From positions 62,001 to 126,000 of the forward strand of contig JALCQR010000005.1 in assembly GCA_022651385.1 (NCBI GenBank): a stretch of 64,000 nucleotides of DNA, read 5' to 3'. How positions within the stretch are numbered: position 1 is the stretch's first letter; each line of letters starts with the position of its first letter. Of this stretch, positions 70 through 37,327 are shown in pieces. Source of the DNA: Clostridia bacterium. GTDB taxonomy: Bacteria > Bacillota > Clostridia > Lachnospirales > Anaerotignaceae. The notes under the pieces are model-generated. The model saw only the letters and a program-made list of their open reading frames with translations. It was not told the origin of the DNA and searched no databases. The translations under genes were made by a program, and so were the position numbers.

Positions 70-1005
70 TTATTTTTTCATGTATTCAGATTCTGTAAGA
101 AGATCAGCGGCTTTTGTTGAGCCAAGAACATCCTTAGCAATTTCAGCAAGTTTTCCGCTCTGGGCAAGTTCCTTTGTATCCTTGTCTAATTTTGCCGCAA
201 GCTCATGACCTCTGTCATTGTTTGCGTATACAAACCAAATAGGAGTACCTTCCGTAACATATCCGCCAAGTTCAATATTTGTAAGGTTGTCGTCTTTTGC
301 CTTTGATAATGCAACAGCTCCGTCGTTTATGGTACAGTCCACACGTCCGTTTGCAATGTCCTCAAGAACGGCCGGAAGCTCGGAATCGTAATATTTTGTC
401 TGGAATGCGTTTGGATGTTTGTCGAGATAATCTTCAACATAGTTGGTAAAGTTGCTTCCGACAATACATGCCACAGTTCCGTGAGCAGCCGCTATATCGT
501 CAAATGATTTCCAGCTGCTGTGTTCCGGAGTAGTGATTATAGCTCCGCCGGCATCATAACAGTAAGGCATTTGTCCGAAATAATACATTTGTTCTCTTTC
601 ATCAGTTTTGCCAAGCTGGTATGCACAAAGGTCATATCTTCCGGCGTCAAGTCCAGGAAGCATTGCAGACCAGTCGCATGTCTCAAATTTAATGCTGATA
701 CTGTCGTCTAAGTCATCAATTGCCTTTAAAACGTCTACATCAAACCCTTGATATTCATTGTTTTTGTCCAAATAACAAAACGGTGCATACGAATTTGCAG
801 TAACAACTGTAACCGTGTCAACGTCGCCTGTCTTTTCAGCCGATGTTGAACCTGAAGCCGATGACGCACTTGACGCTGCTGTTGAGCTTGACGCTGCCGA
901 GCTCGTATTTGCGGAATTGCTTGATGTCTTAGATGAGCCGCATCCCGTAAATACCGTTGCCATTAAGGCAGTAACTGTAATAAATGCTAAAATTCTTCTT
1001 TTCAT
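70..1005 (-). CDS. Amino-acid ABC transporter substrate-binding lipoprotein (SBP family 3)
   Basis: Extracellular solute-binding lipoprotein (311 aa) of a polar amino-acid importer; it captures the ligand outside the membrane and hands it to a permease/ATPase complex. What shows this: a basic MKRR start, a hydrophobic signal and a lipobox ending VFTGC, with Cys22 as the lipid-anchored residue; residues 24-60 are a Ser/Ala-rich tether; the remainder is a family 3 binding fold including GFDVDVLKAI. It lies 212 nt downstream of the ATPase gene on the same strand. No permease gene is in the window; it may lie left of base 1. The ligand cannot be read from the sequence. Confidence 0.9.
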   Translation of the reverse strand: MKRRILAFITVTALMATVFTGCGSSKTSSNSANTSSAASSSTAASSASSASGSTSAEKTGDVDTVTVVTANSYAPFCYLDKNNEYQGFDVDVLKAIDDLDDSISIKFETCDWSAMLPGLDAGRYDLCAYQLGKTDEREQMYYFGQMPYCYDAGGAIITTPEHSSWKSFDDIAAAHGTVACIVGSNFTNYVEDYLDKHPNAFQTKYYDSELPAVLEDIANGRVDCTINDGAVALSKAKDDNLTNIELGGYVTEGTPIWFVYANNDRGHELAAKLDKDTKELAQSGKLAEIAKDVLGSTKAADLLTESEYMKK

Positions 1006-1217: not shown

Positions 1218-1985
1218 TTATTTTTCCGATATCAGATTCAAGAACTTTTTTGTTTTTTCGTTCTGCGGATTGTCGATTACCTGAGAAGGCGGTCCCTGCT
1301 CCACAATGTTTCCGTCGGCCATAAATATAACTTTTGTGGCAACATTTCTTGCAAAGCTTATTTCATGAGTCACAACCATCATCGTAATGCCGGTATCGGC
1401 AATATTTTTCATTGTATTAAGAACTTCTCCTACAAGCTCCGGGTCGAGAGCGGATGTAGGCTCGTCAAAAAGAATAACGCTTGGATTAAGCATCAAAGCT
1501 CTTACAATGCCGCCTCTTTGCTGCTGGCCTCCGGAAAGCTGTGACGGATAGTAATCTTCCTTATCACCAAGGCCGACTTTTGCCAAAAGCTTTTTGCTGT
1601 CTATCTCCACTTCTTCACGGCATCTTTTTTGTACTGTAATCGGACCCTCCATTACATTTTTTAAAAGCGTCATGTTTTTAAAAAGGTTGTAATTCTGAAA
1701 AACCATTGCTGTTTTTTTTCTTAGCTCCGTTACTTTTTTCTTCCTGCCCACTCCCTTTTCGGCGCAGTCGATTTCAATATCATCTATTTTTATTTTTCCT
1801 TTCTGAGCCGACTCAAGGAAATTCAAGCAGCGAAGAAATGTTGTTTTTCCACTCCCGCTTGGGCCGAGAATTACTATTACTTCGCCCTTTTTGACCTCCA
1901 TGCTTACTCCTTTTATAACATCAAGGTTTCCGAAAGACTTATGAAGGTCTGTAATTTTTAGTACAGTCGTTTTCTCGTCTATCAT
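1218..1985 (-). CDS. Amino-acid ABC transporter ATP-binding protein
   Basis: Cytoplasmic ATPase (255 aa) of the GlnQ/HisP class that powers uptake of a polar amino acid together with the binding lipoprotein encoded next. Walker A is GPSGSGKTT at about residues 41-49, the ABC signature LSGGQQQR at about 150-157 and Walker B ILFDEP at about 171-176. The residues after the signature read GGIVRAL where most relatives have VAIARAL, a mild divergence. A strong Shine-Dalgarno (TAGGAGGGG) precedes the ATG. Just upstream is a leader with three tandem attenuator hairpins, so expression is probably set by transcription termination. The gene order ATPase then binding protein, without an intervening permease, is unusual. 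Confidence 0.93.
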   Translation of the reverse strand: MIDEKTTVLKITDLHKSFGNLDVIKGVSMEVKKGEVIVILGPSGSGKTTFLRCLNFLESAQKGKIKIDDIEIDCAEKGVGRKKKVTELRKKTAMVFQNYNLFKNMTLLKNVMEGPITVQKRCREEVEIDSKKLLAKVGLGDKEDYYPSQLSGGQQQRGGIVRALMLNPSVILFDEPTSALDPELVGEVLNTMKNIADTGITMMVVTHEISFARNVATKVIFMADGNIVEQGPPSQVIDNPQNEKTKKFLNLISEK

Positions 1986-2005
1986 TTTTCTTTCCCCTCC
2001 TAAAG

Positions 2006-2045
2006 AAAAAAGGCGCTTTGAGAATTTCTCAAACGCCTTTGTTTG
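2006..2045 (-). terminator. Attenuator unit 3 (gene-proximal) of ABC transporter leader
   Basis: On the minus strand a GGCG-TTTGAGA stem (plus positions 2012-2023 with 2027-2037, one bulge) is followed by six T and then directly by the Shine-Dalgarno of the ATPase gene. The 5' arm can instead form a short hairpin with the preceding CAAAC (2041-2045 with 2030-2034) that closes a six-base loop AAAGGC. The two structures exclude each other, as in a terminator/antiterminator switch. Confidence 0.7.
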
Positions 2046-2067
2046 ATAGTATAAAAATTATTTGCAT

Positions 2068-2106
2068 TAAAAAAGCGTTCGGAATTAATCCAAACGCCAT
2101 TGTCTG
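2068..2106 (-). terminator. Attenuator unit 2 of ABC transporter leader
   Basis: Minus-strand terminator stem (plus 2075-2083 with 2089-2097) followed by six T (2069-2074). The alternative small hairpin CAGAC/GTTTG (2102-2106 with 2091-2095) closes the six-base loop AATGGC. Same layout as units 1 and 3. Confidence 0.7.
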
Positions 2107-2112
2107 CAAAAA

Positions 2113-2153
2113 TAAAAAAACGTCTGGAAATAAATTCCAAACGCCATTGTTTG
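2113..2153 (-). terminator. Attenuator unit 1 (promoter-proximal) of ABC transporter leader
   Basis: Minus-strand terminator stem (plus 2120-2129 with 2135-2144, ten pairs with two G-U) followed by a seven-T run (2114-2120). The alternative hairpin CAAAC/GTTTG (2149-2153 with 2138-2142) closes the six-base loop AATGGC. It is the first of three near-identical units downstream of the promoter. Confidence 0.7.
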
Positions 2154-2184
2154 TATAAGATATGCACTGTTGATTCATGTAAGG

Positions 2185-2213
2185 ATTATAATATCAAAAA
2201 TAAAATTTGTCAA
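2185..2213 (-). promoter_or_regulatory. Consensus sigma-A promoter for amino-acid ABC importer
   Basis: Exact TTGACA (plus 2208-2213) and exact TATAAT (2185-2190) separated by 17 nt on the minus strand. The expected start near 2178 gives a roughly 190-nt untranslated leader that contains the three attenuator units before the ATPase ATG at 1985. A perfect-consensus promoter followed by three terminators implies high constitutive initiation with control at elongation. Confidence 0.85.
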
Positions 2214-4403: not shown

Positions 4404-5321
4404 TTAAAAAGACTCAGCAAAACCGCAACATATTTTATCAATCAAATCTTTTTTAGCAAGTTTTTTTATCCATTTTTCCGGTATGTTTTCAATTCCGTAA
4501 TACAATCCCGCAGCTCCTCCGGCAATTGCTGCTATTGTATCGGTATCCCCTCCGAGATTAACCGCTTTAAGCACACATGAGCTGTAATCCGACGTATTTA
4601 AAAGGCACCAAAACGCAGCCTCAATAGTATCAACAACATATCCCGTACTTTTTATTTCATTTTCACTTAAGTTTTTTAAATTCTTAATCAATCTATTATA
4701 ATTGGCAAGCTCTTTGCTTTCTTCGTTTTTATAATACGCAAACAAAAATTTAACGGCGTTTTCAAAAGCGTTTTCAATACTTTTACCTTTTAGTATATGT
4801 ATGATAAAATCAGTATACAGCATACAGGCCATAATGCTTCTTATATGCCTGTGTGTAAGAGAAGAAAAATTTTTAATGTTTTCGATATTTTCACCTTTAT
4901 AAAAATCGTACAATGCGGCAGGCAGTATTCTCATAAGAGAACCGTTGCCGTTATCCATTTCACCATTTCCGCCGCATATAAGGGCCGGGGTACCGTTTCT
5001 ATATCTGCCTATGGCCTCTTTTGTAGCCATTCCTATATCAAATGCAGTGCCGTAAGGTGTAAAATATCCCTCATACATCCACTTTTTAAAATTTTTCATA
5101 ATGTTTTCATAATCAATGCCGTACTTAAGGCTGTCCATTGTCGCCAAAGTCATACTTGTATCGTCCGACCATGTGCCTTCCGGCTGATTATAAGTGCCAA
5201 AGCCAACCATATCGCAAATAGGAACCTTAGCTCTTTCTTGTCTGCTTTTAAACTCCATCGGAACACCCAGCGCATCACCTACTGCAAACCCAAAAACAGC
5301 ACCTTTAATTTTTCTAAGCAT
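4404..5321 (-). CDS. ADP-ribosylglycohydrolase family protein
   Basis: Mg-dependent hydrolase of the ARH/DraG family (305 aa), expected to remove ADP-ribose from proteins, nucleic acids or small molecules. Motifs: GDALGVPMEF near the N terminus, TWSDDTSMTLATMDSL (metal-binding Ser-Asp-Asp-Thr), DNGNGSLMRILP, HRHIRSIMAC and the C-terminal GGDTDTIAAIAGGAAGLYYG (second metal-binding Asp-x-Asp). The start is set at 5321 (MLRKIKG), after AAGGGTG. An in-frame ATG at 5357 lies inside the terminator stem of the ribosomal operon and is unlikely. No ADP-ribosyltransferase is nearby, so the substrate is unknown. Confidence 0.88.
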   Translation of the reverse strand: MLRKIKGAVFGFAVGDALGVPMEFKSRQERAKVPICDMVGFGTYNQPEGTWSDDTSMTLATMDSLKYGIDYENIMKNFKKWMYEGYFTPYGTAFDIGMATKEAIGRYRNGTPALICGGNGEMDNGNGSLMRILPAALYDFYKGENIENIKNFSSLTHRHIRSIMACMLYTDFIIHILKGKSIENAFENAVKFLFAYYKNEESKELANYNRLIKNLKNLSENEIKSTGYVVDTIEAAFWCLLNTSDYSSCVLKAVNLGGDTDTIAAIAGGAAGLYYGIENIPEKWIKKLAKKDLIDKICCGFAESF

Positions 5322-11224: not shown

Positions 11225-12277
11225 TTACACTTGCACACACTCAAAGCCTGCTGCCTTGTTTAATCTGTTCATTATAGCCATGCCTTCTCCGTTATAGCTA
11301 AAAGTCTCAGAAAAAACGACATCCGCTCCAAGTTTATCAAATTCTCTTAAAATATCAAATAAGTTTGCGCCAATCTCTTTCTCGTCGTTTCTGTGGCCAG
11401 CCGAAAGCACAAAGTCTGCATTATACAGTGCCTTTGTTTCTTCCGTTGCCAACACTCCGGTTTTTAGGCCTTTCCCTTTTGCGTCTGCTAAAAGCTCGTT
11501 TATTTTTGCCGTTACTTTGGCACTTTCTCCCTTTACAAGCTTTACGTCAGCGTCCGGTGAATAATGTTTGTACTTCATTCCCGGTGCTTTAGGCGCAAAA
11601 TCTCCAGTAACCTTTTTGTAAACGGCAGCGTCAACATCTATTTCGCCTATTACGTTTTCAATCATTTCTTTTGTAACGGCACCCGGACGCAGGAGAACAG
11701 CTTTTTCACCGCTTAAATCAAGTATCGTGGACTCAAGCCCAAAGTCACAGCTTCCGCCGTCTATTATCATATCAAGCTTTCCGTTTAGGTCATGCAGTAC
11801 ATGCTCGGCCTTAGTAGGCGAAGGCTTACCAGATGTGTTTGCGCTCGGCGCAGCAATAGGAAGCCCTGATTCCCAAACAAGCACACGTGCAATAATATTT
11901 GACGGAAATCTTACGGCCACAGTGCCAAAATGCCCCGATACCGAGTCCGGCACAATATCTTTCTTTTTAAATATTATAGTAATAGGCCCCGGCCAAAACT
12001 CTTTCATTATTTTTTTTGCATTTTCGGGAACCTCTGATACAATCTGTGATAGCTGCTCTATTCTTCCGATATGCAGTATAAGAGGGTTGTCCGACGGACG
12101 GCCCTTTGTCTCATATATTTTTCGGCAGGCGTCGGCGTCAAGGCCGTTTGCCCCAAGACCGTAAACCGTTTCGGTAGGAAATGCCACAAGGCCTCCATTT
12201 TTTAAAATTTTGGCGGCCTCTCTTATTTTTTCCATATCAATATTGTTTTCGTCTATTTTGACAACTTTGGTTATCAT
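11225..12277 (-). CDS. L-threonylcarbamoyladenylate synthase (Sua5 type)
   Basis: Makes threonylcarbamoyl-AMP from threonine, bicarbonate and ATP, the first step of the universal tRNA t6A37 modification. Residues about 10-205 are the YrdC domain, with [45 protein letters not shown] and [18 protein letters not shown]. Residues about 225-350 form the extra Sua5 domain, so this 350-aa form is Sua5 rather than short TsaC. The gene overlaps the end of the upstream SEC-C gene by four bases, implying coupled translation. Confidence 0.95.
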
Positions 12278-36629: not shown

Positions 36630-36845
36630 CAAAAAAAACCGCCTCTGAAAAATTTTCAGAGACGGATAGTTTACCGTGGTTCCACTCTAATTACAGCATA
36701 TACGCTGTCACTCGAATCCTTTAACGCAGGTCACGTCCAAACGGAAACTCCAAAAATGCACTTCGCTGACTTCATCACAGACGGCTTTCAGCACTGCACC
36801 GCCCTCTCTGGGAAAATCTGTCAGTTACTCTTTTTTCTTCACAGT
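36630..36845 (-). promoter_or_regulatory. T-box leader (tRNA-Cys sensing) of cysE-cysS operon
   Basis: Minus-strand leader between ispF and cysE. The T-box sequence GAGTGGAACCACGG (plus 36674-36687) pairs with the tRNA acceptor end; it is followed by a terminator (ACCGCCTCTGAA/TTCAGAGACGG arms, plus 36638-36667, T-run 36631-36637). Stem I occupies roughly 36740-36840, and the specifier is read as TGC (Cys, plus 36758-36760) within GAAGTGCAT. High uncharged tRNA-Cys should stabilise the antiterminator and turn on cysE, cysS and the genes behind them. Confidence 0.92.
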
Positions 36846-36847
36846 CT

Positions 36848-37327
36848 TTAAACAATATTTTTTTCTATTAAACATACACAGTTTGCGGCAATGCCTTCTT
36901 CATGTCCCGTAAAACCGAGACCCTCTTCGGTTGTTGCCTTAACATTAACATTATCAATGTCGATTTTAAGACAATCGGCAATGTTTTTTCTCATAGCGTC
37001 GATATGCGGCCGCATTTTCGGTTTCTGAGCTATAATAGTTGCATCAATATTGATAATAGCATACTTTTTCTGATTAATCAAGTAGGAAACTTTTTCTAAA
37101 AGCTTTAAAGATGAAATACCGCTGTATTTTTCATCGGTATCCGGAAAATGTTTGCCTATGTCGCCCAGCGCCGCAGCACCGAGTATCGAGTCCATTACGG
37201 CATGCAAAAGCACGTCTGCATCGGAATGCCCCAAAAGGCCAAATTCGTAATCAATCTTTACACCGCCTAATATAAGTTTTCGGCCTTTTACAAGACGATG
37301 AACATCGTATCCGTAGCCAATCCGCAT
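36848..37327 (-). CDS. ispF: 2-C-methyl-D-erythritol 2,4-cyclodiphosphate synthase
   Basis: MEP-pathway enzyme (159 aa) forming the cyclic diphosphate precursor of isoprenoids. It starts [20 protein letters not shown] with the metal-binding Asp-x-His, has [20 protein letters not shown] and [16 protein letters not shown], and ends [20 protein letters not shown]. Length is standard. No ispD is fused or adjacent. The T-box begins 2 nt after its stop, so ispF transcription may run into the T-box, or the T-box promoter may lie within ispF. Confidence 0.96.

Follow-up and report, generated by a model that had tools for sequence, protein, structure and literature searches.

Three candidate ANTAR-type attenuators in series ahead of an amino-acid importer operon in a Clostridia bacterium

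What might three transcription attenuators, stacked ahead of one amino-acid importer, be responding to, and by what means? The question is raised by a 64,000-nt stretch of contig JALCQR010000005.1 from a member of the Anaerotignaceae (hereafter, the window). An initial annotation of these letters described a consensus promoter followed by three terminator/antiterminator units whose hexaloops carry A at position 1 and G at position 4 (A1/G4), as recognized by ANTAR-domain proteins, and remarked that the usual partner hairpin, P1, was missing. Here, we find that the leader is a single-hexaloop variant, outside the published dual-hexaloop motif because P1 was looked for and is absent. We consider it likely that the leader works like an ANTAR attenuator.

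The leader and the operon it precedes

The promoter was recovered exactly, on the minus strand, with TTGACA at 2213-2208 and TATAAT at 2190-2185 separated by 17 nt. Three units follow within about 150 nt, and then comes the ATPase gene of the importer (Table 1). In each unit, the 5′ side of the terminator can pair instead with an upstream CAAAC, CAGAC or TCAAAC, forming a hairpin of 5–6 bp. All three units reappear by scanner and folding, and all three hexaloops (in RNA, AAUGGC, AAUGGC and AAAGGC) fit A1/G4 as first described. A generic terminator finder listed units 1 and 2, and unit 3 was added by our own scanner and RNAfold; the generic count, four in 2.7 kb versus 2.3 expected, does not exceed chance when taken alone. 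The leader as a whole folds with z = -5.76. Because the terminators are much stronger than the hexaloop hairpins, they are the default fold, and the competing hairpins need help to form.

Table 1. Features of the leader and its operon (window coordinates, except where a locus is named)
Feature	Position	Strand	Basis
Sigma-70 promoter, TTGACA-17-TATAAT	2185..2213	-	12/12 consensus match
Unit 1 antiterminator hairpin, CAAAC[AATGGC]GTTTG	2138..2153	-	scanner; alone -2.2 kcal/mol
Unit 1 intrinsic terminator with U tract	2110..2145	-	-13.4 kcal/mol
Unit 2 antiterminator hairpin, CAGAC[AATGGC]GTTTG	2091..2106	-	scanner; alone -2.3 kcal/mol
Unit 2 intrinsic terminator with U tract	2066..2098	-	-14.4 kcal/mol
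Unit 3 antiterminator hairpin, TCAAAC[AAAGGC]GTTTGA	2029..2046	-	scanner; alone -4.1 kcal/mol
Unit 3 intrinsic terminator with U tract	2002..2040	-	-15.8 kcal/mol; own scanner and RNAfold
Polar amino-acid-type ABC transporter ATP-binding protein, first gene	1218..1985	-	ORF; PF00005
Family 3 amino-acid binding protein, second gene	70..1005	-	ORF; PF00497
Sarcosine-oxidase-like three-gene set (2Fe-2S protein, NAD(P)/FAD oxidoreductase, DAO-family protein)	L033 890-4322	-	operon end

A scanner that demands an A1/G4 hexaloop on a stem of at least 5 bp, overlapping a terminator, returns exactly the three leader units from both strands of the 64 kb, whereas 60 dinucleotide shuffles contain 0.3 such sites on average and never more than 2. 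With any of the 15 other letter pairs in place of A and G at these two loop positions, the window yields 0–2 matches per pair. Across 17 further loci (L036-L052, 16 of them around ANTAR genes and one a pattern match), A/G yields six matches versus 0–3 for the other letter classes. Genome-wide, the pattern CARACAAWGGCGTTTG is matched exactly three times, each time in the leader. The leader was also considered as a dispersed repeat and rejected: sites with one to three mismatches (49 and 49) are fewer than those of the backward control (69 and 70), and are hence attributable to chance. Among 295 genomes, CARACAAWGGCGTTTG has eight further exact matches, of which three lie on strong terminators (L052, L055, L057) and one on a weak terminator (L054); for the remaining four (L053, L056, L058, L059), the scanner finds no terminator.

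A riboswitch or other known RNA was likewise rejected, as no Rfam family attains its gathering score in the leader. The best sub-threshold match is trpB (36.1 versus 59 bits), and none of the 21 weak Rfam matches in the leader is to an ANTAR family. Elsewhere in the window, a T-box leader lies at 36655-36851 on the minus strand (101.4 bits, over its gathering score).

Beyond the binding-protein gene, the operon continues past the window with a permease gene and then the sarcosine-oxidase-like genes. Among NCBIfam models, the ATPase best matches TcyN (322.7 bits) and GlnQ (283 bits), both under their cut-offs; the two flavoproteins best match sarcosine oxidase alpha and beta, again below cut-off. 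This gene content makes it plausible that the operon takes up an amino acid or N-substituted amino acid and removes its nitrogen, which is the content expected of a nitrogen-scavenging regulon. A divergent GntR-family gene lies upstream of the operon.

The initial annotation had proposed aligning the leaders of orthologous transporters, and no true orthologs of this leader turned up. At E 1e-40, none of 57 other genomes searched in the family contains a match to the binding protein; a search of 390 other genomes of the class brought up no orthologous operon, the best loci (31–32% identity, in three genomes) carrying no element by our scanner. The comparison below was therefore made on the element rather than on the operon.

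The element across genomes and its association with ANTAR proteins

In the same genome, glnA is preceded by GAAC[AAGGGC]GTTC over a terminator. A covariance model, R1, was built from alignment A1, which holds 48 elements: 44 from relatives and four of this genome's own (the three units and the glnA element). Run on the genome, R1 gives six matches at E <0.05 (the E-values being rough), namely the three units, glnA, glnN and gltB. The units score 43.3 bits (unit 1, 2109-2154), 33.7 bits (unit 2, 2066-2107) and 41.4 bits (unit 3, 2002-2046), each being part of the training set; the glnN (C15:11323) and gltB (C1:145436) matches are absent from it. These two elements read GAAC[AAGGGC]GTTC, before a glutamine synthetase III gene, and TAAGAAC[AAGGGT]GTTCTTA, before a glutamate synthase gene, both genes being named from sequence by eye. 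Seven further matches at E ≥0.1 include unit 3 on the reverse strand and five sites where the scanner sees no such hexaloop. A last element, TTTGTC[AATGAG]GACAGA over a terminator, was found by eye only, in the amtB leader inside the glnA operon, and was listed by neither R1 nor the scanner. In this genome, seven elements thus lie before ammonium-assimilation genes and the importer; one of the seven was found by eye, and their five different loops all fit A1/G4.

We surveyed 295 genomes of the order, 202 with and 93 without an ANTAR protein, for the pattern RACAADGGCGTY followed by a T run. Matches occur in 106 of the 295. Among the matches listed, 114 are distinct (this genome's four included) and in 68 of these a terminator folds over the loop (66 in ANTAR-positive and two in ANTAR-negative genomes). 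Counted by genome among the matches listed, terminator-forming elements occur in 53 of 202 ANTAR-positive versus two of 93 ANTAR-negative genomes (one-sided Fisher p = 3.5e-8), and non-folding matches in 30 versus seven (p = 0.054). These p-values are only a guide, since the species are related and not independent. The backward-pattern control also matches many genomes; it is the folding step that carries the signal.

Might an RNA-binding protein other than ANTAR hold the hexaloop hairpins? In its favor, the leader lacks the P1 that the published ANTAR motif requires, and structured elements occur in two ANTAR-negative genomes, a strong one among them in a genome that is 81% complete (G229, -20.8 kcal/mol). 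The association given above speaks against such a protein, as do the weakness of the other exception (G028, -8.5 kcal/mol) and the position of the element at the head of the ANTAR-encoding operon, both in this genome and in several relatives. We regard this alternative as improbable, and the other factor that the initial annotation had offered as one way around the missing P1 is not needed.

The antiterminator stem covaries across relatives. One caveat is that the 12-mer query fixed the loop and the two closing pairs; the conservation of A1/G4 in the survey is largely imposed for this reason, and the free tests are pairs -3 and -4 and the terminator. Of 65 contexts planned, 60 were fetched. 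A first test used all 60, and a second dropped five as weak (L113, L114, L116, L143, L161). In the second, 52 of 55 distinct sequences have a Watson-Crick pair at -4/+4, with four pair types, compared to 15.6 expected on shuffling; with the weak sequences kept, the figure is 53 of 60. The control, in which the same 12-mer lacks a terminator, gives three of 16, i.e., no signal. Pair -3/+3 is Watson-Crick in 52 of 55, pair -5/+5 is weak (p about 0.016), and farther out there is no covariation. In A1, from which five elements that failed the terminator finder (L118-L121, L145) and five near-duplicate or ANTAR-negative ones (L104, L124, L126, L129, L137) were left out, -4/+4 is paired in 47 of 48, with four types and 30 two-sided changes. 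Three of five whole-helix measures in A1 exceed all 500 shuffles; the other two, pairs with two-sided change and further pair types, are not above shuffles. The terminator stem covaries too, which means that the middle strand has been kept complementary to both of its neighbors.

These data also bear on a simpler reading, that the units are plain tandem terminators insulating the operon from the glycerate kinase gene upstream. That gene is on the same strand and ends at 2278, 64 nt ahead of the promoter, as such a reading would have it. Yet a perfect promoter stands between the gene and the terminators, and terminators without a switching role would not keep a 5′ competitor arm that covaries. 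We therefore think it very improbable that insulation explains the leader.

For counts of promoters, P1 and genes, L153 was dropped along with the five weak contexts, leaving 54 (53 with a gene, L135 being too short to hold one). Most of the elements stand ahead of genes for nitrogen assimilation: the 53 downstream proteins include 10 with a GSI N-domain, eight GSIII, 10 asparagine synthases, six glutamate synthases, three ammonium transporters, two ABC ATPases, one NifH and one ornithine cyclodeaminase. These tallies were made per family and may overlap, and because the longest ORF was used a few are probably not the true first gene. The element before nifH (L110, G056 C40:244394) is a single-hexaloop element.

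Closer to home, 13 glnA-ANTAR loci are present in the family, one of which (L042) has no leader because the contig ends. Eight of the remaining 12 have an R1 match at E <0.01 before glnA, and seven of these keep an A1/G4 loop. The eighth (L046 80-124) keeps the terminator and has lost the hexaloop, unlike its close relatives L045 and L047. A terminator kept without its hexaloop is the pattern that the initial annotation had named as contradicting its reading; it occurs in this one case and not in the other seven. Another glnA leader (L043) is weak, at E 0.3 with loop AAGGAC, and three (L039, L041, L044) have no R1 match at E up to 0.5 in the stretch examined. The pinned pattern does not account for all A1/G4 loops: AAGGGT (the gltB element of this genome) and AAGGAC (L043) lie beyond it, as do AAAGAC (L037) and AAAGAA (L038), which were found by a scanner that itself demands A1/G4.

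A search of the genome (2.6 Mb, 99.9% complete) for ANTAR-domain proteins, suggested at the outset, returned one (C1:231035-231193, 62.4 bits versus a cut-off of 27.3). Its gene sits between glnA and amtB. NCBIfam has no family for this protein, and the single sequence matched no solved structure at E 0.001; once ten relatives were combined into a profile, sequence matches to Rv1626, EutV, NasR and AmiR appeared. In an alignment of ten such proteins (A2: L001 1120-1668 and relatives), the receiver-like domain has Gly aligned with the phosphorylatable Asp of Rv1626, within a conserved C-G-x-K stretch; C32, C52, G53 and K55 are invariant in all ten. With Gly in this place, the input signal is probably something other than phosphorylation. 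The ammonium transporter downstream (L032 6409-8127) has a C-terminus that matches PII models, under their cut-offs. An AmtB with a C-terminal PII-like domain directly 3′ of the ANTAR gene is a candidate partner for signal input; that PII, or another partner, is the source of the signal is our guess.

Residues of EutV that contact RNA, R142, K143, K147, K149, E160, Y164 and M172, would correspond, on our reading of the alignment and with an assumed numbering offset of 2, to R, I, R, K, E, H and M here. On this reading, K149, E160 and M172 are identical here and invariant in A2. His replaces Tyr164, as in AmiR; Ile replaces K143; and R136 varies among relatives. In one other genome (G044, locus L071), the ANTAR gene (4752-5300) follows ABC transporter genes, typed by eye, and a single hexaloop-terminator element (11520-11570) lies before another ABC operon about 6 kb away.

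We propose that three ANTAR-type attenuators in series would bring the importer/oxidase operon into the nitrogen-assimilation regulon. In the default state, RNA polymerase would be halted by each terminator as it folds (about -13 to -16 kcal/mol). Upon nitrogen shortage, the sole ANTAR protein, encoded between glnA and the amtB-PII fusion, would become competent for binding and clamp the nascent hexaloop hairpin, itself weak (-2 to -4 kcal/mol), sequestering the 5′ side of the terminator and permitting readthrough. Each hairpin would act without the separate P1 of the EutV system. Expression of the operon would require readthrough three times, and with three successes needed, output should be low and switch-like, the response being presumably non-linear. 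The presence of one ANTAR protein, of the element before core nitrogen genes, of the association in 295 genomes and of the covarying stem all favor the ANTAR reading with which the analysis began.

Single hexaloops, paired hexaloops and units in series

How can these elements operate without P1? In EutV-dependent antitermination, two hexaloop hairpins are required; activity is abolished or strongly lowered when the linker is 3 or 14 nt long or when 20 nt are inserted, the 14-nt linker drastically lowering induction and the extra 20 nt abolishing antitermination (PMC3369931, PMC8934654). In the 2022 structure paper, one hexaloop becomes the minimal binding motif, P1 still being needed for antitermination, and a dimer is shown to read one hexaloop at a time; the authors ask why both are required (PMC8934654). 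In our leader, no A1/G4 hexaloop hairpin of the P1 kind precedes any of the three units, in agreement with the initial annotation. Among the 54 relatives, a P1 search with linkers of 0–25 nt succeeds in three, which is the background level (46 of 756 shifted placements). In 17 of the 54, a promoter (at least 10 of 12 matches) has its -10 box ending no more than 16 nt from the hairpin, compared to nine of 540 in the control. If called correctly, promoters this close leave no room in the RNA for P1 in about a third of the elements. The glnA and gltB elements of this genome are single as well, their hairpins starting 17 and 9 nt past a -10 box.

Dual arrangements exist too. Two-hairpin leaders with the same kind of loop, the first hairpin lacking a terminator, occur in the Nitrospira group (L164, L172, L186, L203), the linker in L164 being 32 nt and the first hairpin of L186 having a mismatch. 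The amtB leader of a Peptococcaceae (L229) has two such hairpins separated by 23 nt. These leaders tie the loop to the published dual motif and indicate that both layouts exist. In all four Nitrospira-group leaders, it is the second hairpin that overlies a terminator; by eye, L164, L172 and L186 precede porin-like proteins.

It is also possible that the same ANTAR switch uses the units as pairs, the hairpin of one unit serving as P1 for the next in a chain of dual-hexaloop elements. The dual leaders just described, with linkers as long as those of L164 and L229, lend this some support, given that the linkers between our units are 31 and 44 nt. However, unit 1 has no upstream partner, EutV tolerates neither a 14-nt linker nor an added 20 nt (PMC3369931, PMC8934654), and the glnA and gltB elements stand alone, close behind their promoters. 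Since those two are single, pairing of units, the other way around the missing P1 suggested initially, is not required, and we regard it as rather unlikely. More generally, and tentatively, at a little under even chances, we suggest that Clostridia-like genomes such as these have a class of P1-independent ANTAR antitermination. Its protein, whose receiver cannot be phosphorylated, would be gated through a partner, for example an AmtB-fused PII, and would act on single hexaloops, often at the 5′ end of the RNA, to control an ammonium-assimilation regulon, with units stacked on scavenging operons to multiply the control.

Repetition of units was sought by a two-unit scan of genome contigs, which is noisy; 80 of the 119 stretches were listed. 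Among those listed, 16 loci have at least one terminator by script, and 12 were accepted: the five dual leaders above and seven tandem ones. The other four (L176, L181, L198, L216) were rejected by eye as repeats or weak. The tandem attenuators lie before amtB-like genes (L180, L228, L230, L207), glutamine synthetase III (L221), a glutamate-synthase-like gene (L199) and an unassigned gene (L193), with genes assigned by eye; in L221 the script did not find the second terminator, in L228 the first is weak and holds N, and in L207 the second has a poor U tract. A strict pattern finds no second unit in any of the 60 fetched contexts, from 250 nt upstream to 900 downstream, and no other leader with three terminator units is present among the stretches listed or the contexts fetched. 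At least 13 attenuators in six transcription units have been described in D. acetoxidans (PMC3369931), so multiplicity as such is not new.

Relation to known antitermination systems

Natural single-hexaloop leaders, about a third of which apparently begin at the transcription start, make the role of P1 directly testable, and they provide a simple reading rule for nitrogen regulons that dual-hairpin search models would miss. The three-unit leader, a natural three-step attenuator, offers a setting in which to measure how termination in series sharpens a response. Within the open-access literature, as distinct from subscription papers, we found nothing on antitermination through a single ANTAR hexaloop, and single-hairpin operation and the three units in series look new. 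Older work reportedly describes a glnA-linked antiterminator-like regulator, NitR, in a solventogenic Clostridium. The same open-access literature yielded no ANTAR control of clostridial glnA beyond general statements in PMC3369931.

ANTAR control of nitrogen genes is already published. Ramesh et al. (2012) predicted ANTAR targets in Desulfotomaculum and Pelobacter before genes for glutamate and glutamine synthase, ammonium transporter and nitrogenase (PMC3369931), much like the targets seen here. Their search model was defined as two hairpins, which places single-hexaloop leaders outside it.

The closest mechanistic parallel is the eut operon of Enterococcus faecalis, with its four regulated terminators controlled by EutV/EutW. 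There, as here, a short-stem A1/G4 hexaloop overlaps an intrinsic terminator (PMC3369931, PMC8934654). In the eut leaders, each terminator has P1 and P2 with a linker of 5–12 nt, and P1 is required, whereas here P2 is alone; and EutV is phosphorylated via EutW, whereas the protein here has Gly at the receiver Asp. NasR-nasF and AmiR-amiE are likewise nitrogen-related ANTAR antitermination systems with A1/G4 hexaloops (PMC3369931), but both carry the dual motif, and each was studied at a single locus. Finally, like T-box and riboswitch attenuators, our leader sets a terminator against an antiterminator and, unlike these, it belongs to no Rfam family at gathering score.
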